In this document: positions 167 through 13,710 of the stretch, piece after piece
Layout: every line of letters starts with the position of its first letter
Numbering within the stretch: position 1 is the stretch's first letter
The notes under the pieces: model-generated
The model's database searches: none
Told to the model about the DNA's origin: nothing
Seen by the model: the letters and a program-made list of their open reading frames with translations, nothing else
DNA from: Stutzerimonas urumqiensis
GTDB taxonomy: Bacteria; Pseudomonadota; Gammaproteobacteria; Pseudomonadales; Pseudomonadaceae
NCBI RefSeq assembly: GCF_003640395.1
Contig: NZ_RBZQ01000007.1
Span: 1-64,000 of the forward strand
Direction: 5' to 3'
Length of the DNA: 64,000 nt
Position numbers and translations under genes: made by a program

Positions 167-621
167 GTGTTCCCCGCAGGCGCGGGGATGAACCGCACAC
201 CTTGTCCGCCAGTCGCCTTGCAGTAGCGTGTTCCCCGCAGGCGCGGGGATGAACCGCGACCTGTCGGGCCTGCAGCGCGGCGACTTCGGTGTTCCCCGCA
301 GGCGCGGGGATGAACCGCCTGCGGCCCGGAACTCGGCCGCGACGTGTTCGTGTTCCCCGCAGGCGCGGGGATGAACCGGACGCCCAGGGCAACCCGCTTG
401 TGCAGATCAAGTGTTCCCCGCAGGCGCGGGGATGAACCGCCGAACACGGCGTGCTGGGTGTCCTGATGCACGTGTTCCCCGCAGGCGCGGGGATGAACCG
501 AACAGCGACGTACGGCCGTGCTCGATGCAGTAGTGTTCCCGCAGGCGCGGGGATGAACCGCGGATCACGCCTTCACGTTGGCAGTAGCCGTAGTGTTCCC
601 CGCAGGCGCGGGGATGAACCG
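167..621 (+). CRISPR. Type I-E CRISPR array 1: 8 repeats, 7 spacers
   Basis: Repeats of 29 bp start at 167, 228, 289, 350, 411, 472, 533 and 593. They read GTGTTCCCCGCAGGC followed by GCGGGGATGAACCG, and spacers are 32-33 nt. The CCCCGC/GCGGGG hairpin and GATGAACCG end are the Cas6e-type repeat of subtype I-E. The loop is AGGC, where array 2 has ACCC. The repeat at 533 has lost one C of the CCCC run and is 28 bp. By analogy with E. coli the array is transcribed rightwards, so the leader should lie before 167. Only about 38 bp separate the first repeat from the IS end, so the leader appears truncated or missing. Confidence 0.97.
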
Positions 622-653: not shown

Positions 654-908
654 GTGGCAGATTCCAACAAGCTCGGCGATGAGCTGAAAAGCCGCCTTCG
701 GTAACTGGCCAGCCTGCGCCAAGGCTCGTCTCGCTGGAGCGTGGGTGATGCCCCGCATTTTGTAGAGCGGGGTGAAGCGCATGAGAGCTTCAAGCAAGAA
801 GCCCTGGCGGCGTGGATGGCGTATCAGGAAGCCGGTCGGCATTTGTCCGGGCAAGAGACTCGGTTTTGGCTAAGTACCTGGGGGATGGCGCAGAGGCGGC
901 GCTTCCAG
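654..908 (+). pseudogene. Decayed CopG/RHH-family antitoxin remnant
   Basis: From GTG 654 the frame reads VADSNKLGDELKSRLR, then a TAA at 702-704, then continues in the same frame with LASLRQ, HFVERGEAHESFKQEALAAW, MAYQEAGRHLSGQE and LSTWG. This matches the ribbon-helix-helix antitoxin family I recall (VKLDDELKSR...ESFKQEALA...TGLHxT...WLxTWG). The TAA most simply reflects CAA to TAA. A further frameshift near 880-890 moves the expected C-terminus (GDGAEAALP) into another frame. I infer a dead antitoxin. Translation could restart at GTG 741, giving a 96-residue chimeric frame, but it would lack the DNA-binding N-terminus. Confidence 0.7.
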
Positions 909-1006
909 GTGCCACGATTGATTGTCACCGAAGATGCCGAGCGTGGCTGGAGCGTTGCCGTCGGTGCCTTGCCGGTAACGACCCGCTGGTCGGGAGAAGT
1001 GGCTGA
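909..1006 (+). pseudogene. RelE/ParE-type toxin 5' fragment, frameshifted
   Basis: Immediately after the antitoxin remnant, GTG 909 gives VPRLIVTEDAERG. After a one-base loss near 945-947 the adjacent frame continues LERCRRCLAGNDPLVGR and stops at 1004-1006. RelE/ParE toxins of this antitoxin family start MPRLIVTExAxRGLERCRRFLAxKDP, so this is the first third of such a toxin. The remaining 60 or so residues, including the catalytic or gyrase-binding part, are absent. I infer a non-functional relic. Its position between array 1 and cas3 suggests a former plasmid- or island-borne addiction cassette. Confidence 0.65.
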
Positions 1007-1030
1007 CGCCTGGCTCGTATCTGCGACCTG

Positions 1031-1198
1031 AATATGCGCGCTTAGCTGACACATTTTTCTGCACGGTGCCTCCTGAATGGCTTTAGAAACGGCCCGGATG
1101 CCCGCTAATGTGACCGAAAAATTCACCTGTCTTTACATACAGACTTCCGTCTTTCACCTTCTGGTGATTAGCTGCCTCGCAGGCAAGGACGCGAGCAG
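1031..1198 (+). promoter_or_regulatory. Upstream region of cas3 with three small inverted repeats
   Basis: This gene-free stretch leads to the cas3 start. It carries three consecutive short hairpins: AGAC-ttcc-GTCT at 1141-1152, CACC-ttct-GGTG at 1156-1167 and TGCCT-cgc-AGGCA at 1173-1185. The last lies in TTAGCTGCCTCGCAGGCA (1168-1185). I see no confident -35/-10 pair. The segment must contain the cas operon promoter or 5' leader unless transcription comes from array 1 or the IS. The operator role of the inverted repeats is inference. Confidence 0.4.
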
Positions 1199-3886
1199 GT
1201 GCGAAAAATGAAGGAGCAGTTGCGGTTCTCGCAGTTGTCGACGCAGGCACGGACGATTTGGGCAAAAAGCGGCGAAGGAGCGGGGCATGGTTTGTTGGCC
1301 CATCTGCTCGATGTTGCTGCAGTGACCGAAACCCTTCTGACGCTGGAACCCGAGACCACTCGCGGCTGGCTGACCGGGTCATTCGGTTTGCCTCAAGCGA
1401 GCATCTCACGCTGGATAGCTGCACTGGCCGGGCTGCATGACTACGGCAAGGCGATTCCCGGCTTTCAAGCCAAGTGGGAAGAAGGCCAGGATGCCGATCG
1501 GAATGCTGGCCTGCCGTTCGATAGGCGTGCCTGCGATGTGACCAACCACTCCTGCGCAACCGCGGCGTTGCTGGGCGCTGGCTTGCAGCGGTGCAGCGGT
1601 GCAGAGACTGACTGGGTCCGGCATGTGTTGCAGGCGATCAGCGCCCATCACGGCTACCACTTCCTGCGGCCCGAGATTGAACAGGCGCGTCCTGATGACG
1701 GGCGCCAATGGGCGGATGCGCGACAGGCGATCCTCGACGCGTTCTGGTCCGTTTTGGCTCCCGAGGGGACTCCCGTGCTCGACGAGCTCGATCTGCCAGC
1801 GGTGAACTGGCTGGCAGGGATTACCAGTGTGGCCGACTGGATTGCGTCGAACCCAGAGTGGTTTTCCCTCGGCGAACGGCAAGTTGACCTTCATGACTAC
1901 TACCGTAACGCTCAGGAACTTGCTGAAGGTGCTCTCCAGCGGATCGGTTGGGGGGAGATGCGGCCGTTGCTGACCGGTCATTGGTCTGCCGACGCGTTGC
2001 TGGCGCGTATCGTCAACCGGCAGGGTGTGTCGGCCCGGCCCTTGCAGCAGTCGGGTGATCGCCTGCTCGGCGATGTGAGAGGGCCTGCGCTGCTGTTGGT
2101 GGAAGCGCCAATGGGGGAGGGCAAGACGGAGTTGGCCTTTCTTGCCCATCTTCGGCTACAGGCGGCGAACGGACATCGGGGCTTGTATATGGCGCTGCCG
2201 ACCCAGGCGACCGGCAATGCGATGTTCAAGCGGACGTTGACGTTTCTTGAGGGCTTCGCGGACGGCCCGCTCGACGTGCAGCTTGTACACGGTGGCGCCA
2301 CGCTAAATGAGGATGTTCAGCACCTGCGAGGTGTCGATCATTCAAGCGGAGCGAGTCTTTCCGCGTCTGCCTGGTTTTCCCAGCGTCGGCGACCACTGCT
2401 TTCACCCTATGGCGTCGGTACGGTCGACCAGGCGCTGTTCTCCGTTCTCAACGTGAAACACCACTTCGTGCGACTCTGGGGCTTGAGCAACCGGGTCGTG
2501 GTGCTGGATGAGGTGCATGCGTACGACACCTATACCCACGGGCTGATCGAGTCCCTGCTGTGCTGGCTCAAGGCGCTGGGCAGTTCAGTCGTGCTGATGA
2601 GCGCCACCCTGCCGGAGCGGCGGCGGACTTCCTTGCTGAAAGCCTGGGGCATTCCGGCTGGCGGCGCCCCGGAGCTGCCCTATCCACGTGTGATGCTCGC
2701 TGATCAGAAAGGCGCGCGTGGCGAGCATTTTGAGGCGCGCCCACTCGCTCCGATCCGCCTGGCGGCCATGGGCGAGACGCTGGAGGCCCTGGCTGCACGT
2801 GCCTGTGAGCTGCTGGACGGTGGCGGGTGCGGCGCGCTGATCGTCAATACGGTCGATCGGGCCCAGGCGTTGTACCGGACGCTAAGCGAGCGCCTTGATG
2901 GCTCGGTCTGCCTGTTGCTTTTCCACGCACGCTTTCCGGCCGACGAACGTAACGATCGGGAGCGCAGGGTGCTCGGGCTGTTCGGTCCGGATGGCCAACG
3001 GCCGGAGAAGGCGCTATTGATCGCCACCCAGGTCGTAGAGCAATCGCTCGATCTGGATTTCGATTTCATGCTCAGTGACCTTGCGCCGGTCGATCTTCTT
3101 TTGCAGCGGGCCGGGCGGCTGCATCGGCACATGAGAGAGCGGCCCCCCATGCATCAGGGCGCCTGCTTGCATGTTGCCGGCTTGGATGGCGCCAAGCTGC
3201 CAGACCTCAAGGAAACCGCCTGGCAGTACGTCTACGACGCCTACATTCTCGGTCGGACCTGGGCGTTGCTGTCTCGTGAGCAGGAGCTGCATCTGCCGGG
3301 CGATATCGATCGACTGGTCCAGGTGGTGTATGACCTGGACGGGCCGCTGCCAGACGACCTGGAGGAAAAGGCGAGGCAGTTCATCGAGGTCGACACGTTC
3401 GGTGAGTATCTTGCTAAGTCGGGTGATCAGCGCATGCGCTCAGTGAACATCGCCATAGATCCCTTGGCCGAGCCGCAGCATGCCTATGCGGGGAAGCCCC
3501 ACGGCAACGAGGAGGGCGACGGCATCGGCCTTACCAACCGCACCCGCCTGGGGCTGGAGTCGGTCACGCTGATCCCGGTGCGGGTAGGTCTGCATGGATG
3601 GCAAGTCGATGCTGGCGCACCCTGCTTCCAGCCGGATCAGCCGGTGGATGACGACACGGCTCGCCGGCTATACGCCCGGCAATTCAAGCTTTCACGCAAG
3701 GCCGTGGTCGCGCATTTCCGAGCGGGCGAAGCGCCGCTGGCGTTCACCGGACATGCGCTGCTGAAACACTGCTATCCCTTGCCGCTGAAGGATGGGCGCT
3801 ATGAGTTGGATGGTTTGAGTATGCGGCTGGATGAGGAGCTGGGGCTTGTTTATGAGCACCAGCAAGCGCAAGAGGGAACCCTATGA
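1199..3886 (+). CDS. cas3: CRISPR-associated helicase/nuclease Cas3, type I-E
   Basis: This is the effector nuclease-helicase recruited by Cascade to nick and unwind target DNA processively. The 895-residue protein has an N-terminal HD nuclease domain (AGHGLLAHL near residue 28, the metal-binding LHDYGKA with H80-D81, NHSCATA near 116, ISAHHGYH near 148). An SF2 helicase follows: Walker A APMGEGKT near 303, DEVH near 437, SATLP near 473 and QRAGRLHRH further on. The length fits E. coli Cas3 (about 890). GTG 1199 is preceded by AAGGAC at a good distance; ATG 1208 is the alternative. It overlaps cas8e by 4 bp (ATGA), so it is translationally coupled to the Cascade genes, unlike E. coli where cas3 is separate. 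All core motifs look intact. Confidence 0.97.
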   Translation: MRKMKEQLRFSQLSTQARTIWAKSGEGAGHGLLAHLLDVAAVTETLLTLEPETTRGWLTGSFGLPQASISRWIAALAGLHDYGKAIPGFQAKWEEGQDADRNAGLPFDRRACDVTNHSCATAALLGAGLQRCSGAETDWVRHVLQAISAHHGYHFLRPEIEQARPDDGRQWADARQAILDAFWSVLAPEGTPVLDELDLPAVNWLAGITSVADWIASNPEWFSLGERQVDLHDYYRNAQELAEGALQRIGWGEMRPLLTGHWSADALLARIVNRQGVSARPLQQSGDRLLGDVRGPALLLVEAPMGEGKTELAFLAHLRLQAANGHRGLYMALPTQATGNAMFKRTLTFLEGFADGPLDVQLVHGGATLNEDVQHLRGVDHSSGASLSASAWFSQRRRPLLSPYGVGTVDQALFSVLNVKHHFVRLWGLSNRVVVLDEVHAYDTYTHGLIESLLCWLKALGSSVVLMSATLPERRRTSLLKAWGIPAGGAPELPYPRVMLADQKGARGEHFEARPLAPIRLAAMGETLEALAARACELLDGGGCGALIVNTVDRAQALYRTLSERLDGSVCLLLFHARFPADERNDRERRVLGLFGPDGQRPEKALLIATQVVEQSLDLDFDFMLSDLAPVDLLLQRAGRLHRHMRERPPMHQGACLHVAGLDGAKLPDLKETAWQYVYDAYILGRTWALLSREQELHLPGDIDRLVQVVYDLDGPLPDDLEEKARQFIEVDTFGEYLAKSGDQRMRSVNIAIDPLAEPQHAYAGKPHGNEEGDGIGLTNRTRLGLESVTLIPVRVGLHGWQVDAGAPCFQPDQPVDDDTARRLYARQFKLSRKAVVAHFRAGEAPLAFTGHALLKHCYPLPLKDGRYELDGLSMRLDEELGLVYEHQQAQEGTL

Positions 3887-5424
3887 GCAAGGCCATCAAT
3901 CTTCTGGACGAGCCCTGGCTACCGGTACAGCTGGCGGGTGGTGGCGTTACTCGGCTCGGCTTGCTGGAACTGTTCGAGCGGTCTGGGGAGATCGTCGCGC
4001 TGGCCGAAACGGCGCCGCCCAGCCTGATCGCCGAGTATCGACTGTTGCTGGCGATCACCCATCGGGCGCAGGGTCGGGCCTTCGGCGGCTGGAAGGACAT
4101 GGATCGCCGCCGTTGGTACCGCGACGGACTGCCGGTGGCTGAGATTCATGAGTATCTCGAGCATTGGCGCGAACGGTTCTGGCTGTTTCATCCAGAACAT
4201 CCATTCATGCAAGTGGCGGCGCTGGCCACGGCTGATGAAACGCGGGACAAGCGCAAGCCCTGGACGCAAATTGCGCTGGCGAGTGCCAGCGGCAACACAC
4301 CGGTAGTGTTCGACCACTCGCTGGACGATGCGCCGCTTGAGATCACGCCTGCCGATGCGCTGGGAACCTTGCTCGGTTTTCTGCAATTCACGCCGGGCGG
4401 ATTGGTGAAGGTTGTGCGTGGTTCCGATAAAGCCGGCGCGCTGGTTAACACCGCTGCGGTATTGCCTGTTGGGGCAACGCTACAACAGACGCTGTGCCTG
4501 GCATTGCACCCAGAGCCAAAGGGAGGCATAGATGACCTGCCTGCCTGGGAGCGGGACGCTCTGAGCATCACCGAGCTAAGCGGTGATCCCGTGCTTGCGA
4601 CAGGGCCCAATGACCGTTACACCCGCCAGAGCCGTGCCGTTCTGTTGCTGCGCGAGGCCAGTGGCAATATTCGGTGGCTGCGTTTCGCCGCCGGGTTCGC
4701 GCTGGGGGACGATCCGAACGCGCCGGACCCTATGGCCAGCTATCGAGCCGGAAGCAATGGCCTTGTTCGGCTGAGCTTCACGGAAGGGCGTTCACTCTGG
4801 CGTGATCTCCCGGCGCTGGTTCCGGACATCAGCGGTACGGCGGCCAGGCCGGCGGCTGTCCTCACGCATGCGATGAGCCTGCACGACAGCTTTGACGGTG
4901 TTTACCAACCGGTTCTCGTGGCCGGCCTGGCCAGCGACCAAGCCAAGCTACTGCGCTGGCGTTCGGAACGGGTTGCCCTGCCCGCCGTGTTGCTGGCCGA
5001 TGCGAACAAGGCCAACCGGTTACGGAAACTGGTTGCCGAGGCTGAAGCGCTCTTCAGTGAACTGCGCAAAATCGCGACGGGCCTGCTGGCCGACACCTTG
5101 CCGGACCCATCCAGCAAAGACACCCGCGCTCGCGCCCGTGCGCTGGTTGATAACGGGCCGTTGTCGGCCACCTTCTTTGCCCATGCCGAACGCTCCCTGC
5201 ACGCAGTGCTCCTTGCGCTGGGTGAAGGGCGGGGCGACATCGCCGACGCTTTCTGGAGCGAGGCATTGCGCACCAGCGCCCGGCAGGCCTGGACGGCCGT
5301 GCAAAACGGCATCGGACGCTCCCCGCTGGCTTTGCGTGCGATTGCCCGACACGAGCCGCGCGTAGCAGCGTTGCTGAACAAACTCCTGCCGAATCTAGAA
5401 AACCCACCTGCCAAGGAGGCATGA
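3883..5424 (+). CDS. casA: Cascade large subunit Cas8e (Cse1/CasA)
   Basis: Large subunit of the type I-E surveillance complex. It reads the PAM, helps open the duplex and recruits Cas3. The 513-residue protein begins with the characteristic Cse1 opening INLLDEPWLPVQ and keeps the SLHDSFDGVYQPV and long C-terminal helical region expected of the four-helix bundle. The length matches the family (about 500). The ATG overlaps the cas3 stop by 4 bp, and the stop is one base from the next start. The position second in the operon, followed by cse2, cas7, cas5 and cas6e, is canonical for I-E. Confidence 0.95.
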   Translation: MSKAINLLDEPWLPVQLAGGGVTRLGLLELFERSGEIVALAETAPPSLIAEYRLLLAITHRAQGRAFGGWKDMDRRRWYRDGLPVAEIHEYLEHWRERFWLFHPEHPFMQVAALATADETRDKRKPWTQIALASASGNTPVVFDHSLDDAPLEITPADALGTLLGFLQFTPGGLVKVVRGSDKAGALVNTAAVLPVGATLQQTLCLALHPEPKGGIDDLPAWERDALSITELSGDPVLATGPNDRYTRQSRAVLLLREASGNIRWLRFAAGFALGDDPNAPDPMASYRAGSNGLVRLSFTEGRSLWRDLPALVPDISGTAARPAAVLTHAMSLHDSFDGVYQPVLVAGLASDQAKLLRWRSERVALPAVLLADANKANRLRKLVAEAEALFSELRKIATGLLADTLPDPSSKDTRARARALVDNGPLSATFFAHAERSLHAVLLALGEGRGDIADAFWSEALRTSARQAWTAVQNGIGRSPLALRAIARHEPRVAALLNKLLPNLENPPAKEA

Positions 5425-5425
5425 C

Positions 5426-5971
5426 ATGAGCGAGTGTGCGCTGCGATTCGTCGATCATTTGAAGGCGCTTGGCCAGGCCAACCGCGGCGCCATGGCTGCG
5501 CTACGTCACAGCCTTGCGTTCGAACCTGGCACCTACGAGAAGGCATACCCCTACGTTGAACGTTTCGCCAGTGCCGAGCAGTCGCCGCGTTCGCCGTGGC
5601 GTCTGGCGCTGTACCTGACGGCGGGACTCTACGCACGCCATCCGCAAAACGCCGCGCAGAGCTTCGCCGCTGCCTTTGGTGAGCTGTGGCGTGCGCGCGA
5701 AAGTTCGCCCAGCGTGGAGAAGCGTTTCATCGCCTTGCTGGGAGCCGATGCAGAAAACGTCGCCGAGTATCTGCGCCAGGCCATCAGCCTGCTGGCAGCC
5801 GAGGACATCGGTTTCGACTTTGCCCGGTTGCTGGATGATCTCAAGTACTGGCTGAACGCCTACGCCCCCGAACAGCGCGACCGGGTCCGCCAGCAATGGG
5901 CACGCGATTTCTACCGCGCCAATATTTCTGATAACGCCAACAACACCAACAGCCAAGAAAAGGACGACTGA
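5426..5971 (+). CDS. casB: Cascade small subunit Cse2 (CasB)
   Basis: Small subunit, present as a dimer in Cascade, which stabilises the R-loop by holding the displaced strand. The 181-residue, mostly helical protein is slightly longer than E. coli Cse2 (160). Visible family features are the N-terminal LGQANRGAMAALRHSL segment and the RHPQNAAQSF stretch followed by a helical C-terminus (WLNAYAPEQRDRVRQQWARD). A short polar tail (NANNTNSQEKDD) is extra. It begins 1 bp after the casA stop and ends 2 bp before casC, so the genes form one transcript. Identification rests largely on position plus these weakly conserved motifs. Confidence 0.92.
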   Translation: MSECALRFVDHLKALGQANRGAMAALRHSLAFEPGTYEKAYPYVERFASAEQSPRSPWRLALYLTAGLYARHPQNAAQSFAAAFGELWRARESSPSVEKRFIALLGADAENVAEYLRQAISLLAAEDIGFDFARLLDDLKYWLNAYAPEQRDRVRQQWARDFYRANISDNANNTNSQEKDD

Positions 5972-5973
5972 GC

Positions 5974-7107
5974 ATGGGCCTGTTCCTCGAATTCCACCTG
6001 ATCCAGAACTTCGCGCCTTCCAACCTCAACCGTGACGACACCGGCGCACCCAAAGACGCTATTTTCGGTGGCCAGCGGCGGGCAAGGGTCAGCAGCCAGT
6101 GCTTCAAGCGGGCCATACGCCTTGCGGCGAGCGAGCACGAGCTGATCCCGGTTGCTCATCGCGGCGTGCGCACCAAGAAACTGAGGTCGTTGCTGCTGGA
6201 ACGCCTGACCAACCGCGATGCAGAAGAAGCGGCCGGCAAGATCGAGGTCGCCCTGGGGGCCGCCGGGCTGAAGCTCAAGGACGACGGCAAGACCGAATAC
6301 CTGCTGTTCCTTGGTGAGAATGAAATTAACGGCTTTGCCGCGTTGATCGAACAGCACTGGGAAGAACTGGCTGCCGGGGGCGACAAGAAAAGCAAAAAGG
6401 ACGCCAAGGCCAGTTTGCCGCTGGAAGTCGTAAAGAAGGCCAAGTCCTTGCTCGACGGTGGCAAGGCTGTGGATGTCGCCCTGTTCGGTCGAATGCTGGC
6501 GGATATGCCGGAAGCCAACCGGGATGCGGCATGCCAGGTCGCCCACGCCATTAGCACTCACCGGGTCGAGCGCGACTTCGATTACTTCACTGCGGTGGAT
6601 GACATGGGCGGGCCGGAAGAAAGCGGCGCGGGCATGATCGGACAGGTCGAGTTCAATTCGGCCACGCTGTATCGCTACGCAGTGCTGGATGTCCGTAAGT
6701 TGCTGAGCAACCTGCAAAGCGACCGAGACCTGACCCTTGCTGCGCTAGAGGCCTTTGCCCAAGCCATGGTGCGGGCAATCCCCACGGGCAAGCAGAACAG
6801 CTTTGCTGCGCATAATGCCCCTGAGTTCGTGGGTGTGTGCCTCCGGCACGAGGCTCCGCTCAACCTGGCCAATGCCTTCGAGAAACCGGTGGCGCCACGC
6901 CCCGACAAGTCGCTCACCGGGCAGTCGGTAGAAAGGCTCGCCGAATACGAAGGCAAGCTTTCGAGCTATTACGCCGCGTCGACCGATCAGTGGGCCTGCC
7001 TCGACCTGACTGGCGGGTGGCCTGCCGAAAAAGGCGGCCAATTGCCGTCGTTGGCTGCGCTGGCCGGTTGGGTGCGCGAATCGGTCGCTTCCGAACTGGA
7101 GGCCTGA
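5974..7107 (+). CDS. casC: Cascade backbone subunit Cas7e (Cse4/CasC)
   Basis: Six copies of this RAMP protein coat the crRNA spacer in Cascade. The 377-residue product opens with FLEFHLIQNFAPSNLNRDD and GAPKDAIFGGQRRARVSSQ, the hallmark Cas7e N-terminus, and has the conserved SSQCFKRAIR segment. The length is near E. coli CasC (363). A lysine-rich internal stretch (KKSKKDAKA, about residue 137) lies in the variable region. The ATG follows casB by 2 bp, and its stop lies 2 bp before the cas5e ATG. Confident from sequence and context. Confidence 0.96.
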   Translation: MGLFLEFHLIQNFAPSNLNRDDTGAPKDAIFGGQRRARVSSQCFKRAIRLAASEHELIPVAHRGVRTKKLRSLLLERLTNRDAEEAAGKIEVALGAAGLKLKDDGKTEYLLFLGENEINGFAALIEQHWEELAAGGDKKSKKDAKASLPLEVVKKAKSLLDGGKAVDVALFGRMLADMPEANRDAACQVAHAISTHRVERDFDYFTAVDDMGGPEESGAGMIGQVEFNSATLYRYAVLDVRKLLSNLQSDRDLTLAALEAFAQAMVRAIPTGKQNSFAAHNAPEFVGVCLRHEAPLNLANAFEKPVAPRPDKSLTGQSVERLAEYEGKLSSYYAASTDQWACLDLTGGWPAEKGGQLPSLAALAGWVRESVASELEA

Positions 7108-7109
7108 CT

Positions 7110-7781
7110 ATGCCCACCTTGCTGCTGCGCCTGCAGGGGCCGATGCAGTCCTGGGGCACCACCAGCCGCTTCGACGAGCGCGATACCGGGCTCGAGCCGT
7201 CCAAGTCCGGCGTGGTCGGCCTGCTATGCGCCGCGCTCGGCCGGGATCGCAAGGAACCAGTGGAGGACCTGGCTGCCTTGCGGATGGGCGTGCGAGTCGA
7301 CCGGGAAGGCGTGCCGATGCGTGATTACCAGACGGCCACTGGCGTGGTCGTGGCCGCAACAGGCAAGGCCGATCTCGGGCGTACTGTGGTCAGCCCGCGT
7401 TATTACCTGTCCGATGCGGTGTTTTTGGTCGGTCTGGAAGGCGAAGATCAAGCGTTGCTCGAGCGTTTGCATGCTGCCGTAAGGAATCCAGTTTGGCCGC
7501 TCGCATTGGGCCGAAAGGGATTCGTGCCCGGGTTGCCCGTACATCTTCCGGATGGATTGGTTGCCTCGCCCCTGTTCGAAGCATTGGAGTGCTACCCCTT
7601 CCTGCCTGGGCATGGAGAGCGTCCGATTTCGCTACGTGGCGCGATCGAGCATGCCAGCGAAGGCTCGATCCGTTTGGATCAGCCGGTAGCACCCTTCGCA
7701 GAGCGCCGCTTCGGTCCTCGCTTCGTCAAGTCCGTTTCGTTCGCAGGAGGCGAGCATGTTTCTGACCCGATTGGCGCTTGA
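7110..7781 (+). CDS. casD: Cascade subunit Cas5e (CasD)
   Basis: This subunit caps the 5' handle of the crRNA and links the Cas7 backbone to Cas8e. From ATG 7110 the protein is 223 residues, as in E. coli CasD (224). It begins MPTLLLRLQGPMQSWG, the classical Cas5 N-terminal strand, followed by SRFDERDTGLEPSKSGVVGL. The frame is open further upstream, but the ATG just after the cas7e stop fits the family start. The 3' end overlaps cas6e by 26 bp, implying translational coupling. Confidence 0.95.
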   Translation: MPTLLLRLQGPMQSWGTTSRFDERDTGLEPSKSGVVGLLCAALGRDRKEPVEDLAALRMGVRVDREGVPMRDYQTATGVVVAATGKADLGRTVVSPRYYLSDAVFLVGLEGEDQALLERLHAAVRNPVWPLALGRKGFVPGLPVHLPDGLVASPLFEALECYPFLPGHGERPISLRGAIEHASEGSIRLDQPVAPFAERRFGPRFVKSVSFAGGEHVSDPIGA

Positions 7782-8370
7782 CCCGCGCAGCGCCCAGGCG
7801 CGTCGCGATCTGAGCAGCCCGTACGACTTGCATCGCACTTTGGTTCGAGCCTTTGTCCGCGACGCTGAACAGACGCCTCCGCGTTTTCTTTGGCGGCTCG
7901 AGCCAGGTGGGGCTTGGGATGCACCGGTTGTGCTCGTCCAGGCACAGGCAGAGCCTGACTGGTCGGCACTTACGGCGTTGCCGGGTTATTTGAAAGGCGC
8001 GCCCGAGACTAAGCATGTCGATGTCGAGCGGTTCGTCCAGGCGGGCGGTCGCTACCGGTTCCGGCTGCTGGCTAACCCTACGGTAACCCGCGAAGGCAAG
8101 CGCTACGGGTTGGCTACCGAGACGGCACAGCTCGACTGGCTGGGTCGGCAGGGGGCTCGCTTGGGTTTTGCGGTCGAGAGTGTGCTGGTTACCAGTAGCG
8201 ATTTGCTGGAGACCCGCAAGCGCGATATGCGCATCAGCCTTCAACGGGCCTGCTATGAAGGCCTGCTCTGGCCGAACGATGTCTCGCTCCTGGCCGGTGC
8301 ACTCCAGTCGGGCATCGGCCCCGGCAAGGCATTCGGTTGCGGCTTGCTCAGCCTGGCAAGGATTGGCTGA
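7756..8370 (+). CDS. casE: crRNA endoribonuclease Cas6e (CasE)
   Basis: Cleaves the pre-crRNA at the base of the repeat hairpin and stays bound to the 3' stem-loop. The product is 204 residues, close to E. coli Cas6e (199). The N-terminal ferredoxin-like fold starts MFLTRLALDP and contains YDLHRTL with H26, the likely catalytic histidine. The C-terminal glycine-rich loop GIGPGKAFGCGLLS is the Cas6 signature. The start lies 26 bp inside cas5e. Both arrays keep the same six-base-pair repeat stem, so one Cas6e should process both. The next gene, a KilA-N protein rather than cas1, begins 23 bp downstream. Confidence 0.95.
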   Translation: MFLTRLALDPRSAQARRDLSSPYDLHRTLVRAFVRDAEQTPPRFLWRLEPGGAWDAPVVLVQAQAEPDWSALTALPGYLKGAPETKHVDVERFVQAGGRYRFRLLANPTVTREGKRYGLATETAQLDWLGRQGARLGFAVESVLVTSSDLLETRKRDMRISLQRACYEGLLWPNDVSLLAGALQSGIGPGKAFGCGLLSLARIG

Positions 8371-8393
8371 CATAACTGACAGAGAAGAAACCG

Positions 8394-9218
8394 ATGAAAG
8401 CCAAACTCCAGGTCCTCGACCAGCAGATCGGCACCACCACCAAGGATGGTATCGAGTACATCAACATCACCGACATCGCCCGCTTCAAGAACAACGAGCG
8501 GACCGATGACCTGATCCGCAACTGGCTGCGCAACCGCAACACCATCGAGTTCCTCGGCATCTGGGAGCAGCTCAACAACCCGGTGTTTAAACCCGTCGAA
8601 TTCGACGGGTTTAGAAAACAGGCCGGCTTGAACAGCTTCACCCTCACGCCCAAACAATGGATCGAGCAGACCGGCGCCATTGGCCTGATTTCCCGAGCCG
8701 GCCGCTACGGTGGCACCTTCGCCCAGAAAGATATCGCCTTCGAATTCGCCAGCTGGATCTCGGTGGAATTCAAGCTCTACCTCATCAAGGAATTCCAGCG
8801 CCTCAAGGAACAGGAGTTCCAGCAGCTGGGCTGGGACATTCGGCGCAATCTGGCCAAGGTGAACTACCTGATCCACACCGATGCCATCCGCGAGAACCTG
8901 ATTCCGGACACCCTGACCAAGCAGCAGACCAGCCAGGTCTACGCCAGCGAGGCCGACCTGCTGAACGTGGCGCTGTTCGGGGTCACCGCGCGCGAGTGGC
9001 GGGACGCCAATCCGGCGCTCAAGGGCAACATCCGCGACCACGCCAACGTGCACCAACTCGTCTGCCTGGCCAACCTGGAGTCGATGAATGCGCATTTCAT
9101 CGAGCAGGGCGTCGTCCAGGCGGAGCGGCTGCAAAAGCTGAACGAACTGGCCATCCGGCAGATGCGTGTCCTGGTTGGGCAAGGGCTGTCGCGGCTGTCC
9201 GCAGGCGAGGCCGAGTGA
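8394..9218 (+). CDS. KilA-N domain DNA-binding protein embedded in the cas operon
   Basis: The 274-residue protein has an N-terminal KilA-N domain (about 1-135): a strand pair with YINITDIARFKN, NWLRNRNTIEFLGIW, TLTPKQWIEQTGAIGL, then the hallmark GRYGGTFAQKDIAFEFASW and VEFKLYLIKEFQRL. The C-terminal half (about 145-260) is helical and contains ASEADLLNVALFG, AREWRDANP and GNIRDHANVHQLVCLANLES, a conserved extension I recall from bacterial KilA-N proteins of unknown function. KilA-N domains bind DNA and are common in phages and large DNA viruses. The gene lies 23 bp after cas6e with AGAGAAG as a possible ribosome site. Its stop is 1 bp before the cas1 ATG, so it is coupled to the adaptation genes. 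It is not a known I-E component. A regulator, an adaptation accessory or captured phage cargo are all possible; I do not know its role. Confidence 0.9.
   Translation: MKAKLQVLDQQIGTTTKDGIEYINITDIARFKNNERTDDLIRNWLRNRNTIEFLGIWEQLNNPVFKPVEFDGFRKQAGLNSFTLTPKQWIEQTGAIGLISRAGRYGGTFAQKDIAFEFASWISVEFKLYLIKEFQRLKEQEFQQLGWDIRRNLAKVNYLIHTDAIRENLIPDTLTKQQTSQVYASEADLLNVALFGVTAREWRDANPALKGNIRDHANVHQLVCLANLESMNAHFIEQGVVQAERLQKLNELAIRQMRVLVGQGLSRLSAGEAE
8588..8613. repeat. 26-bp perfect palindrome inside the KilA-N gene
   Basis: The left arm TAAACCCGTCGAA (8588-8600) is followed directly by its exact reverse complement TTCGACGGGTTTA (8601-8613), with no spacer. It encodes part of FKPVEFDGF in the KilA-N protein. 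There is no T-run after it on either strand, so it does not look like an intrinsic terminator. An operator or an RNA cruciform/hairpin is possible. Confidence 0.9.
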
Positions 9219-9219
9219 C

Positions 9220-10146
9220 ATGGCCTCGACGCTATTGCCGCCGCTCAAGCCGCTGCCCATGAAGGACCGCATCTCCATGGTGTTCGTCCACTACGGACAG
9301 ATCGACGTGCTCGACGGCGCCTTCGTGGTCATCGACAAGAACGGCGTGCGCAAGCACATCCCGGTCGGGGCGGTGGCTTGCATCATGCTCGAGCCGGGCA
9401 CGCGCATTTCCCATGCGGCAGTGAACCTGGCAGCGACCGTCGGCACCTTGCTGGTCTGGGTCGGTGAGTCGGGCGTGCGGCTGTACTCCAGCGGCCAGCC
9501 GGGCGGCGCGCGGGCCGATCGTCTGCTCTACCAGGCCAAGCTGGCGCTGGATGACGACCTGCGGCTAAAGGTGGTGCGCAAGATGTACGAGGTGCGCTTC
9601 GGCGAACCGGCGCCGGCCAGACGCAGCGTCGAGCAATTGCGCGGCATCGAGGGCGCGCGCGTGCGCGGTACCTACAAACTGCTGGCGCAGCAGTACAAGG
9701 TGAACTGGCGCGCGCGCAATTACGACCGCAACCAGTGGGACGCGGCGGATATTCCCAACCGCTGCCTGTCCGCAGCCACGGCGTGCCTATATGGGATCAC
9801 CGAAGCAGCCGTACTGGCCGCAGGCTATGCGCCGGCCGTCGGCTTCATCCACACGGGCAAGCCGCTGTCGTTTGTCTACGACATTGCGGACCTGTTCAAA
9901 TTCGAAACCGTGGTGCCGCTGGCTTTTCGCATTGCCGCCAAGTCGCCGGCCGAGCCTGAGCGAGAAGTACGGATCGCCTGCCGCGACCTGTTCCGTTCGG
10001 ACAAATTGCTCGGCCGTATCATCCCGCTGATCGAGGAAGTGCTGGCAGCCGGTGGTATCCATCCACCCGAAGCACCGCCAGAGTCCGTCCCGCCAGCCAT
10101 CCCAAACCCCGAAAGCCACGGCGATGCCGGGCACAGGGCGAAGTAA
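9220..10146 (+). CDS. cas1: CRISPR integrase Cas1, type I-E
   Basis: Catalytic subunit of the Cas1-Cas2 spacer integration complex. From ATG 9220 the product is 308 residues (E. coli 305) and starts after a short MASTLLPPLKPLPMKDR extension. Metal-binding residues are visible: the glutamate in RGIEGARVRGTYKLL, the histidine in VGFIHTGKPLSF and the aspartates in VYDIADLFKFE. The start is 1 bp after the KilA-N stop, so translation is probably coupled to that gene. The stop abuts the cas2 ATG exactly. The proline-rich C-terminal tail (HPPEAPPESVPPAIPNP) is typical of Cas1e. Confidence 0.97.
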   Translation: MASTLLPPLKPLPMKDRISMVFVHYGQIDVLDGAFVVIDKNGVRKHIPVGAVACIMLEPGTRISHAAVNLAATVGTLLVWVGESGVRLYSSGQPGGARADRLLYQAKLALDDDLRLKVVRKMYEVRFGEPAPARRSVEQLRGIEGARVRGTYKLLAQQYKVNWRARNYDRNQWDAADIPNRCLSAATACLYGITEAAVLAAGYAPAVGFIHTGKPLSFVYDIADLFKFETVVPLAFRIAAKSPAEPEREVRIACRDLFRSDKLLGRIIPLIEEVLAAGGIHPPEAPPESVPPAIPNPESHGDAGHRAK

Positions 10147-10446
<300 letters not shown>

Positions 10447-10511
10447 CAAGAAAACCCGGTAGAGTTCTTGTAGCCGATTTTCTTCTTTATGAACAAACGG
10501 TTACGTTTGGT
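10447..10511 (+). promoter_or_regulatory. Leader of CRISPR array 2
   Basis: This 65-bp AT-rich segment lies between the cas2 stop and the first repeat at 10512, in an otherwise GC-rich region. It contains a perfect 6-bp inverted repeat CAAACG-gtta-CGTTTG at 10494-10509, ending 2 bp before the repeat. The same bases include GAACAAACGGTTA (10491-10503), which matches the CAANNNNTTR core of the IHF consensus but misses two of the preceding bases. The leader function follows from position and orientation. The IHF site is a tentative reading. Confidence 0.8.
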
Positions 10512-13500
10512 GTGTTCCCCGCACCCGCGGGGATGAACCGTCGATGCTCAGGCGTTCAGTGAGGGCAGGGTGGTGTTCCCCGCACCCGCGGGGATGAACC
10601 GGCCTTGGTTGTGTCGCCAAACGATTCGCGCTCGTGTTCCCCGCACCCGCGGGGATGAACCGGTTGACCCGTTTGAGGATTGATCCTGAATCCCGTGTTC
10701 CCCGCACCCGCGGGGATGAACCGGGTGCCGCGACCGGTGGGGCGGGTGCGTACGTGTGTTCCCCGCACCCGCGGGGATGAACCGGGTGAGCAGCAGGCAG
10801 GCGGCGATGATCAGGCGTGTTCCCCGCACCCGCGGGGATGAACCGCGATCGACACGCATATCGAGGCGGGTGGCGGTGTGTTCCCCGCACCCGCGGGGAT
10901 GAACCGTCGGGTCACGGCAGGCATGGCGTTACTCGTTCGTGTTCCCCGCACCCGCGGGGATGAACCTGCTTGCCTTGTACGGCCTGCCGCCATTCACGCG
11001 TGTTCCCCGCACCCGCGGGGATGAACCGCCCTGAAGGACGCTTGCATAGGTGTCATCGCCGTGTTCCCCGCACCCGCGGGGATGAACCGCCCGTTGAAAC
11101 ACTGAACGGGTGCCTGGGTGCGTGTTCCCCGCACCCGCGGGGATGAACCGGCGCACAATGTCTGCCCAAAACGTATGAACCCGTGTTCCCCGCACCCGCG
11201 GGGATGAACCTACACCGAGAGCACGGCCTACGGCGTGCGGCAAGTGTTCCCCGCACCCGCGGGGATGAACCGGTTGTTTTTATCAATTCTACTGGCTCAG
11301 AGGCGTGTTCCCCGCACCCGCGGGGATGAACCGCGCAGGGTGCCGATCTTGTAGCCGGCCGAGGTGTGTTCCCCGCACCCGCGGGGATGAACCGCTTGGC
11401 CTCGAATCAGGTCACATTGGCCACTCGTGTTCCCCGCACCCGCGGGGATGAACCGGATGGTATCGGCCACAGCCATTCGCCCGAATAGTGTTCCCCGCAC
11501 CCGCGGGGATGAACCGGAACGGAAGGAATTATGGACAACGTGATTCAGGTGTTCCCCGCACCCGCGGGGATGAACCGCCTTATAAATCAGGCATTTAGGT
11601 GTAACGCTTGTGTTCCCCGCACCCGCGGGGATGAACCGACGGAATCCGCAAACACGTTTCAGTCGGCTACGTGTTCCCCGCACCCGCGGGGATGAACCGC
11701 TCGCTGTCCTTCATGGGCATTCGGCCTTGTTGTGTTCCCCGCACCCGCGGGGATGAACCGACCGGCGAGCGGATGACGCAGAAGATGTACGCGTGTTCCC
11801 CGCACCCGCGGGGATGAACCGATGGTGTCCTTGTTCGGCCTTTCTCCAAGGTCGTGTTCCCCGCACCCGCGGGGATGAACCGGCCGACAGCCTAGCTGGC
11901 GTGCTGGAAGAGCAGTGTTCCCCGCACCCGCGGGGATGAACCGATGATTATGAACGTGCTACAGGCCGAACGGTCGTGTTCCCCGCACCCGCGGGGATGA
12001 ACCGGCCGACACGAACCGGATCGCGGTTCTGTCCGTGTGTTCCCCGCACCCGCGGGGATGAACCGCGTAGGGCGCATGAGCGGGCGATGTGTGAGGGGTG
12101 TTCCCCGCACCCGCGGGGATGAACCGCATCGCCATCTTCGGCAGGGACGGAATATGTGGTGTTCCCCGCACCCGCGGGGATGAACCCTCAGCTCGTTCAG
12201 CCAGTCCAGCCGAACCATCGTGTTCCCCGCACCCGCGGGGATGAACCGGAGTACGTCGAGCAGCGATCACCGAGGCTCACGTGTTCCCCGCACCCGCGGG
12301 GATGAACCGCGATGGATTGGGAAGGCAACAAACAACAGGTCGTGTTCCCCGCACCCGCGGGGATGAACCGCTGGCAGAGGCGCGCGACGGAGTAGACGTT
12401 TTCGTGTTCCCCGCACCCGCGGGGATGAACCGGCCCGGAACTGATGGTTTCGGGGCCTGCCCGCGTGTTCCCCGCACCCGCGGGGATGAACCGTTTTCAT
12501 CGGCTATTCCTTAGAAACAGAGGGCGTGTTCCCCGCACCCGCGGGGATGAACCGAACCTTACGCCGCCTGCTTGGTATCAGCGAGCGTGTTCCCCGCACC
12601 CGCGGGGATGAACCGCGACTAATCGCCCGTTGGGCGAGGTCGAGGCCGTGTTCCCCGCACCCGCGGGGATGAACCGTTAAAAAACACGGGGGTACGACGG
12701 TTGATGGCGTGTTCCCCGCACCCGCGGGGATGAACCGGTCGATCACAGCGCGGTTGACCTTGCCGTAGGGTGTTCCCCGCACCCGCGGGGATGAACCGTA
12801 CTGCGCGGCCTGGCCAGACAGCGCCATCAGGTGTTCCCCGCACCCGCGGGGATGAACCGTACCAGGCCAGTATTACGCCAAACGTATCGGCGTGTTCCCC
12901 GCACCCGCGGGGATGAACCGCGGACGCTGTAGCGATGGCCGTCGATCTCGTAGTGTTCCCCGCACCCGCGGGGATGAACCGGCCAGCGAGATGCAGGCGC
13001 GCCTTAACCGTTCGTGTTCCCCGCACCCGCGGGGATGAACCGGAGTGCCGCTAATGCCTGTTTCAGATTTTGGTGTGTTCCCCGCACTCGCGGGGATGAA
13101 CCGCATCGGAGGCTGTGCACATGTACTACTGCCACGTGTTCCCCGCACCCGCGGGGATGAACCGGTCCGCGAGAGACGGCTCGGAGCCAGGCTTGTGTGT
13201 TCCCCGCACCCGCGGGGATGAACCGGGCAGTGCGGCTACGTTGGCGCCGAATGGCAGGTGTTCCCCGCGCCCGCGGGGATGAACCGTACATCAGCCGGAA
13301 GGTCGGCGCTGTCATCCAGTGTTCCCCGCGCCCGCGGGGATGAACCGCGCGATTTCGGCGGACGCTGACCCTTGGCGGCGTGTTCCCCGCGCCCGCGGGG
13401 ATGAACCGACCCACATACGCATCAATGGCCATAGGTCACCGTGTTCCCCGCGCCCGCGGGGATGAACCGTCCGCCGAGGGTAATCCAGCTGTATACCCAC

Positions 13501-13710
13501 AGTATTCCCCGCGCCCGCGGGGATGAACCGCGGCCCAGCTCGCTGCCGAAATGTTCCAGGTCGTGTTCCCGCGCCTGCGGGGATGACCGCCATTGAGGGA
13601 GCGACTATGAACGATCGAGTGGTGTTCCCCACCCCGCGGGGATGAACGGTCTGGCAGCTCTGGCAATCGGGCACCTGCCACGCATTCCTCGCAGAAGCGG
13701 GGATGAGCCG
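10512..13710 (+). CRISPR. Type I-E CRISPR array 2: 50 conserved plus 3 degenerate repeats
   Basis: Repeats of 29 bp, GTGTTCCCCGCACCC then GCGGGGATGAACCG, recur every 61 bp from 10512. I count 50 well-conserved copies to 13502 and three eroded ones at 13563, 13622 and 13682. Spacers are 32 nt except one of 33 nt (12371-12403). I saw no duplicated spacer. The leader-proximal part is uniform; from 13258 onward copies carry GCGCCC instead of GCACCC, the 13502 copy starts GTATT, and the last three have deletions and substitutions. A further vestige in phase may lie at 13743-13770. Three repeats end in T, T or C instead of G (10967, 11211, 12187). The crRNA direction is left to right. Confidence 0.98.

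Follow-up and report, generated by a model that had tools for sequence, protein, structure and literature searches.

A PDC-S22 family KilA-N gene with a conserved internal palindrome embedded between cas6e and cas1 of a type I-E CRISPR operon

A complete gene for a KilA-N domain protein was found between cas6e and cas1 of the type I-E CRISPR (clustered regularly interspaced short palindromic repeats) operon of Stutzerimonas urumqiensis, at positions 8394-9218 of the forward strand of contig NZ_RBZQ01000007.1, whose first 64,000 nucleotides are here called the window. The gene belongs to PDC-S22, a single-gene candidate of PADLOC. Comparison with its relatives showed that this nomadic family lodges recurrently, on the same strand, between genes of DNA-targeting defence operons, and that its genes are held to a palindrome in their own coding sequence. 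The interpretation that we tentatively prefer is that of an embedded accessory defence gene working with its own DNA element; it draws on the PDC-S22 match, the restriction and Cas neighbours, the tight junctions, selection on the gene, the conservation of the palindrome together with its viral copies, and the model provided by BstA and its aba element.

The open reading frame runs from an ATG to a TGA and encodes 274 amino acids. The product matched the Pfam KilA-N family (PF04383) at residues 20-139 (E 4e-20; 72.1 bits, curated cut-off 23.8), PHROG 2657, labelled transcriptional regulator, at residues 2-260, and the PADLOC PDC-S22 profile PDLC04962 at residues 3-263 (E 9.8e-131; profile positions 5-267 of 281). 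Since the last two matches span nearly the whole chain, the protein is regarded as full length for its family. The N-terminal part of the AlphaFold2 model (mean predicted local distance difference test score 91.5) resembles the APSES domain of Mbp1 (Z 7.5, root-mean-square deviation (rmsd) 2.6 over 84 residues). The best solved-structure match over the whole model was DdrC (Z 9.7, 194 residues, rmsd 11.9, 10-11% identity), a loose match with a Z score of a size reachable by chance for helical proteins; a profile search for solved-structure relatives by sequence gave no match, DdrC included, at E values up to 1. A second KilA-N protein, only distantly related, is encoded in the same genome (G000:C13:41402-41710; G numbers denote genomes and L numbers loci).

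All eight cas genes were named by Pfam and NCBIfam, and cse1, cse2, cas7, cas5, cas6, cas1 and cas2 by type I-E NCBIfam models. The KilA-N gene follows the end of cas6e (8370) after 23 bp and is separated by 1 bp from cas1 (start at 9220), with cas2 starting at 10147, so that, as expected for an embedded accessory gene, it shares the strand and the tight spacing of the multi-gene defence operon around it. Its completeness and its place between cas6e and cas1, as given in the initial annotation, were thus confirmed by the open reading frame, Pfam and NCBIfam. That annotation held that the gene must be co-transcribed with its neighbours; because no sigma-70-like promoter site was seen in 7700-10500, co-transcription of cas6e, the KilA-N gene and cas1 is likely, short of certain. 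It also saw in the gene the best candidate for an undescribed system in the window; taken strictly this did not hold, since PADLOC already lists the family as PDC-S22 and cases of embedded defence genes have been described. No direct repeat links the two borders of the gene in the window.

A sample of 194 related genomes contained 24 Cas1e loci of at least 73% identity to the window Cas1. The KilA-N protein was matched at E 0.001 or better in 25 of the 194 genomes, and the nine full-length matches were all located between cas6e and cas1. The frequency count proposed in the initial annotation accordingly gave nine of the 24 Cas1e loci with an intact gene, three with a gene truncated in place (G038, G050 and G121) and 12 without it; in the window's own genus, which accounts for 12 of the loci, the figures were eight, two and two. 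Recurrence in nine of the 24 comparable loci indicates that the arrangement is not due to chance, and, with its presence in other genera, disposes of an insertion private to this strain. In G178 a decayed copy is flanked, at a contig end, by cas6e and a piece of cas1, and G046 has a fragment of the gene upstream of cas3.

Scanning 84,980 species genomes yielded at least 581 relatives in many phyla, methanogens included, of which the best 80 by similarity, not a random sample, were analysed. Four of these, from Gilvimarinus, two Halopseudomonas and an Alteromonas metagenome-assembled genome (MAG), show the cas6e-KilA-cas1 arrangement (78-84% identical, distinct from the nine above), and a copy in a Thalassospirochaeta MAG (71%) lies between cas3 and cas8e of a type I-E operon, overlapping both. 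The family was found in 58 of 2.9 million viral contigs, as compared to the 581 or more stretches of the species genomes (the queries and patterns of the two scans differ), so that calling it typical of phages, as KilA-N domains had been described, is too strong for PDC-S22. In a class-wide sample of 369 genomes (cut-offs 1e-60 and 1e-15), Cas1e was present in 25 and the KilA-N gene in 21; only in the window genome were the two adjacent, and the sole other genome with both, G453, has them far apart. The cas6e-KilA-cas1 arrangement is a property of one lineage and not of type I-E systems at large.

In the gene tree, built by a quick method without bootstrap, the CRISPR copies, 14 in all, group together (Shimodaira-Hasegawa approximate likelihood ratio test support 100). 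Each is placed immediately before an adaptation gene, where effector and adaptation genes meet: cas1 follows it in the 13 type I-E loci and cas4 in the type I-C operon of G430. The G430 copy is 84% identical, lies between cas3 and cas4, and has an end that changes after about residue 226. It probably moved there from a type I-E operon; the transfer is no more than probable because the nesting of the I-C copy within the I-E copies is supported by values of only 91 and 81. The same operon (L171, 2894-12660) contains, between cas4 and cas1, a second embedded gene, which encodes a Bro-N domain and belongs to PADLOC PDC-S13. Before its KilA-N gene lies a short remnant that over 31 residues is a 45% match for the gene preceding KilA-N in L080; we take this remnant to be RhuM. 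A 72-residue fragment in G002, 74% identical and with no cas gene found there, counts against a group confined to CRISPR loci. L172 (G150, 2663-5063) has a different type of Cas1, about 21% identical to that of the window, followed by a KilA-N gene fragment and by a DUF1016/YhcG nuclease gene.

Outside CRISPR loci, the gene is often placed within a restriction-modification operon. Pfam matches in 67 upstream neighbours comprised N6_N4 methylase (6), ResIII (6), N6 methylase (5), HsdR N-terminus (4) and Cas6e (4), and those in 63 downstream neighbours type I specificity subunit (8), Cas1 (4), ResIII (4) and N6 methylase (3). A labelled restriction-modification or Cas gene was directly beside the KilA-N gene in 25 of 80 loci and three places away in 7 of the 72 loci with a gene there, or 21 of 75 and 2 of 67 when the five CRISPR loci were removed; labels were assigned to neighbour clusters from 20 scanned neighbours and counts, so restriction genes may be missed, and genes were called by the longest-frame rule. 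Among the 25 PADLOC matches listed, of 130, for 128 control genes located more than 3 kb from the KilA-N gene, no model had more than three. Junctions are frequently tight or overlapping (for example L083, L091, L122, L146, L147 and L148), often with overlapping stop and start codons, and in L083 the gene overlaps both neighbours. Three highly similar HsdR-KilA-HsdM/S operons were seen in the class-wide sample (L162, L164 and L169).

The same wanderings could mark a passenger or selfish gene that rides on often transferred operons, with a palindrome serving its own spread or upkeep and no benefit to CRISPR immunity. The family is scattered over phyla and also occurs on plasmids, integrative and conjugative elements, satellites and phages, and its restriction context switches 14 times across 22 rows of the gene tree. 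Decay is frequent: the remnants in G038 and G121 are in-frame internal deletions with the frame ending at the cas1 start, G050 carries a frameshift, and the lone G002 fragment (L268, about 1501-1524) is an inverted duplication around the palindrome with perfect 22-bp arms, like a copied hairpin. In phage satellites of streptococci (L070 and other Javan satellites), family members adjoin the integrase. Against this explanation, purifying selection acts on the intact copies: over 13 intact type I-E copies the median ratio of nonsynonymous to synonymous substitution rates was 0.12 for the KilA-N gene (31 pairs) and 0.046 for Cas1 (25 pairs). Third-position guanine-cytosine content of the copies ranges from 0.42 to 0.87, matching cas1 and the host; together with the selection, this rules out a recent foreign insertion for the intact copies. 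Long residence in CRISPR operons, the cas neighbours in the window and the lack of a direct repeat joining the gene borders there are likewise contrary to a passenger, which we regard as unlikely.

The gene travels with the adaptation end of the operon. KilA-N identity tracks Cas1 identity (r 0.78; as high in 0 of 5000 permutations) more than Cas6e identity (r 0.48), and between L003 and L007 the KilA-N protein is 93%, Cas1 98% and Cas6e 31% identical. Compared to L003, the loci L007, L009, L072, L074 and L075 have very different Cascades and a similar KilA-cas1-cas2 end, showing this end to recombine as a unit. In the comparison with the Cas1 tree envisaged by the initial annotation, the identities covary, and the tree needs five presence changes of the KilA-N gene (4-7 over bootstraps, at least three forced by starred branches; mean 9.4 when shuffled). 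These, with seven changes of Cascade type (a label assigned from Cas6e identity), rule out simple vertical inheritance with Cas1. In loci lacking the gene, the cas6e stop and the cas1 start touch or overlap in 9 of 12, the other three having gaps of 2, 8 and 22 bp. With starts as chosen by our script, Cas1 begins several residues earlier in 12 of the 13 loci that have the gene, L075 being the exception, and in each of the three remnant loci; none of the 12 loci without the gene shows this.

Association with cas1-cas2 could indicate an adaptation accessory, a protein that binds or shields DNA for Cas1-Cas2 and alters spacer uptake; a role in spacer acquisition was one of the options of the initial annotation. 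It would fit the position of the 14 copies upstream of an adaptation gene and their permanence there when the Cascade differs. The array beside cas2 is also longer with the gene (median 46 repeats, n = 13) than without it (19.5, n = 12; p 0.014), a comparison uncorrected for kinship, in which runs of N were counted as repeats (L152, L073, L239 and L249) and some arrays are cut at the end of the stretch (L154, L159 and L075). The three remnant loci have arrays that are long too, and array length was rejected on all these grounds as proof of more acquisition. Moreover, constant presence with cas1-cas2, as expected of an adaptation accessory, was not found, the gene being absent from half of the 24 loci, and the family also occurs in restriction-modification operons, which acquire nothing. 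A role in spacer acquisition therefore received no specific support and seems rather improbable.

The palindrome surfaced during the search for repeats at the gene borders. It is perfect over 26 bp (8588-8613), and its GAATTC centre encodes E69-F70. The corresponding stretch was examined in 168 family genes (the window gene, 8 relatives, 90 plasmid, phage and genome loci, 11 class loci and 58 viral loci), which contain near-copies and represent 149 distinct stretches. On average, 14.9 of 18 arm positions were complementary over the 168 genes, versus 9.3 in shuffles with codons redrawn for the same protein, and the excess reached P<0.05 in 165 genes and P<0.01 in 152. Among the 149 distinct sequences, each of the inner 13 positions was complementary in 82-99%, several of them with three or four pair types, and protein and DNA vary together (KPVEFDGF, KVIEFDDF, KPLEFEGF, KLVEFDQF and others), so the palindrome is maintained by compensatory changes. 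Position 14 was complementary in 50% and a T-G in 48%, the latter being the AAA or AGA codon of lysine or arginine. Perfect palindromes with 13-bp arms were counted 54 times in KilA-N genes and 5 times elsewhere in the 80 genome loci (816,613 bases).

As RNA, the window stretch would form a hairpin of -27.9 kcal/mol (z -4.5). The share of T-G among mismatches was 0.49, versus 0.44 in shuffles; because T-G is hardly enriched, the palindrome may act in DNA, as a site or a cruciform, or in the mRNA, as a hairpin. Such an element would suit a self-regulator: recognised in the DNA or as a hairpin of the mRNA, the palindrome would be the point at which the protein, or else a nuclease, sets expression of the KilA-N gene or of the downstream genes, with defence secondary. 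The transcriptional regulator label of PHROG 2657, the location of the palindrome in the transcript upstream of cas1, the stability of the hairpin and the single copy in the genome are consistent with this idea, but it does not explain the exact viral copies or the repeated embedding in defence operons, and RNA pairing is not specially indicated by the T-G share; on balance we think it improbable. A second palindrome near the gene as operator was ruled out, the same arms recurring there in 1 of the 168 loci. A GAATTC-centred palindrome with other arms is present in L116 (about 5909-5940), 76 bp upstream of the KilA-N gene.

The exact 24-mer was found in three of 299 genomes of the phylum, namely in the window gene, in the G002 fragment and in G246, there outside any KilA match. 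Viral contigs were scanned seven times, with three natural and four control palindromes of our choosing, one natural type being searched as 25 letters. Exact places numbered 11 for the window type (searched with one extra letter) and 15 for the CCCCTC type, and 24 of these 26 were outside any KilA match, in the sense that none overlapped the palindrome in the contig piece examined, which is a part of most contigs; many were between reading frames. None of the four control palindromes, of which two share the AAACCC or AAACCCC ends, had a match in the viral contigs. In several of the viral pieces with the exact palindrome outside a KilA match (L257-L262, L264-L267, L270-L282 and L284), it is located directly before gene starts or between genes. 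One viral palindrome stretch was compared with phage records and gave one partial match.

Control by CRISPR itself was considered. In CrePA, as described in the portion of a review available to us, a CreP toxin with a KilA-N domain is paired with a CreA RNA; this, together with CRISIS and the Citrobacter rodentium CreTA (likewise from partial sources), makes CRISPR repression worth testing here. Cascade with a guide resembling a crRNA (CRISPR RNA) would silence the KilA-N gene, as toxin or guard, until CRISPR is inhibited. The spacer at 11456 has a 10-nt seed and an AAG motif at position 8445, 51 bp inside the gene (19 of 32 positions identical), and 9-nt spacer seeds matched the KilA region 18 times over 13 loci, one of which has no detected spacers, against a mean of 6.7 (range 2-10) for shuffled spacers. 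However, two further stretches of the operon, each as long as the KilA region, were matched by the same seeds 18 and 12 times. The KilA-N gene is therefore not singled out by the excess, and the case with the AAG motif is one of its 18 matches. The best repeat-like element outside the arrays in 801-10500 had 19 of 29 positions, the maximum of 30 shuffles, and no creA-like element was found; the position between cas genes is that of CRISIS, with no guide found. Only 23 bp lie upstream of the gene, with no sigma-70-like promoter, the L083 gene overlaps both neighbours, and repression would hit cas1-cas2 too. The searches for repeats, promoters and seeds gave no special support to CRISPR repression, which appears the least probable of the explanations.

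Table 1. Features of the cas operon and of the embedded KilA-N gene in the window.
Feature	Coordinates	Strand	Details
KilA-N gene, PADLOC candidate family PDC-S22	8394..9218	+	274 aa; open reading frame, PHROG, Pfam, PADLOC
Perfect 26-bp palindrome within the KilA-N coding sequence	8588..8613	.	centre GAATTC (8598-8603)
Extended pairing around the palindrome	8586..8615		one T-G
KilA-N domain, residues 20-139	8451..8810	+	predicted APSES/Mbp1-like fold; Pfam, model
C-terminal helical region, about residues 140-268	8811..9197	+	AlphaFold2 model; loose DdrC match
Gap between cas6e and the KilA-N gene	8371..8393	+	23 bp; purine-rich, ribosome-binding-site-like stretch; too short for a creA unit
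cas6e	7756..8370	+	Pfam, NCBIfam
cas1e	9220..10146	+	N-terminus MASTLLPP, 4 residues longer than the MLPP of relatives lacking the KilA-N gene
cas2e	10147..10446	+	Pfam, NCBIfam
cas3	1199..3886	+	Pfam, NCBIfam
cas8e (cse1)	3883..5424	+	Pfam, NCBIfam
cas11 (cse2)	5426..5971	+	Pfam, NCBIfam
cas7e	5974..7107	+	Pfam, NCBIfam
cas5e	7101..7781	+	Pfam, NCBIfam
Main CRISPR array, downstream of cas2	10512..13530	+	50 repeats of 29 nt
Short CRISPR array, upstream of cas3	167..621	+	variant repeat

The repeats of the two arrays flanking the operon differ slightly, with GCAGGC in the array at 167-621 and GCACCC in that at 10512-13530.

Taken as an embedded defence gene, the KilA-N gene would be transcribed and translated together with the cas operon, and its product would be a DNA-binding protein with a KilA-N and a helical domain, which on its own would counter phage DNA entering the cell and add a second layer to that of CRISPR. 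This co-expressed second layer was among the options of the initial annotation and is the best supported of them. The gene itself is a genuine, conserved member of the operon within a lineage. The palindrome could be the cognate site read by the protein. It might spare or switch off the protein at its own locus, as aba does for BstA, a protein with a KilA-N-like N-terminal domain that acts by abortive infection and that a cognate DNA element within the BstA locus turns off, according to the part of the source available (PMC8585504); or it might be a mark recognised by the protein on phage DNA. A more ambitious version, which we hold doubtful, would make PDC-S22 a one-gene system of self and non-self recognition, in which the protein and its palindrome co-evolve as lock and key across bacteria and archaea, the same palindromes carried by phages outside the gene are either the recognition mark or keys that the phages have stolen and use to turn the protein off (aba-like decoys), and the CRISPR operon gains a second, independent layer of immunity. 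The palindrome raised our estimate of this version and of self-regulation, and slightly lowered those of acquisition and CRISPR repression.

Several observations weigh against the embedded defence gene with its own DNA element. The gene appears dispensable, because 12 of 24 comparable loci lack it and remnants are common; its adjacency to Cas1e was confined to the window genome in the class-wide sample, and about two thirds of the best 80 relatives adjoin no labelled restriction or Cas gene. In the window genome the in-gene palindrome is the sole match with up to 3 mismatches, and a second copy near the gene is as rare as stated above. The acting form could equally well be an RNA hairpin. The third natural palindrome type (that of L007 and L011, present in several CRISPR-borne copies) had no match in the viral contigs, and many of the viral copies of the other types could be bidirectional terminators, although terminators do not suffice as an explanation because the exact core and the empty controls are left unexplained. 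The structural match to DdrC is loose, and the likeness to BstA and aba is of logic only, because aba has direct repeats over the gene start. Finally, we know of no tested anti-phage activity of PDC-S22.

Our literature search retrieved no paper testing PDC-S22, nor one that places PDC-S22, or the gene described here, in a cas operon. In the parts of the sources available, one survey records PDC-S22 in S. suis (PMC12813430), and KilA-N and type I-E proteins appear as separate clusters (PMC5571608). New here are the conserved site in the operon, the group of CRISPR copies and its probable move to type I-C, and the palindrome, at which no literature search was aimed. If the second layer is active, this CRISPR operon has a built-in partner that phages must also defeat. 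The palindrome makes the interpretation directly testable, since it provides a protein, a candidate DNA key in its own gene and viruses with the same key, and natural pairs of loci with the same Cas1 and a present, absent or broken KilA-N gene allow a clean comparison. If true, the BstA-aba idea would be extended from Gram-negative prophages to a bacterial and archaeal family in restriction-modification and CRISPR operons.

Among catalogued systems, the closest is PDC-S22 itself, whose profile matches the KilA-N protein over its whole length; it is a computed candidate. DdrC of Deinococcus radiodurans, which binds and protects DNA according to the part of the source available (PMC5436757), is the best structural match over the whole model, yet at the low identity and high rmsd given above. 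CrePA shares the KilA-N domain and the type I CRISPR locus, but neither a creA-like element nor an own sigma-70-like promoter was seen here. The rlo genes, PrrC, TgvAB and DarTG2 are embedded in restriction operons (PMC11411939, PMC12255303, PMC4996451 and PMC12707154, each as far as available) and, like the window gene, are extra genes between subunit genes of a DNA-targeting defence operon; unlike them, the window gene is in a CRISPR operon, at the cas6e-cas1 junction, and is conserved over a lineage. As for BstA, PADLOC returned PDC-S22 alone, and the presence of a BstA model in that copy of PADLOC was unchecked. BstA is prophage-borne and the window gene is not, and aba, in the part of the source available (PMC8585504), is a 63-bp element with terminal direct repeats that spans the gene start, in contrast to the inverted, mid-gene palindrome described here; both proteins nevertheless combine a KilA-N-like N-terminal domain and a second domain with a short DNA element inside their own locus.
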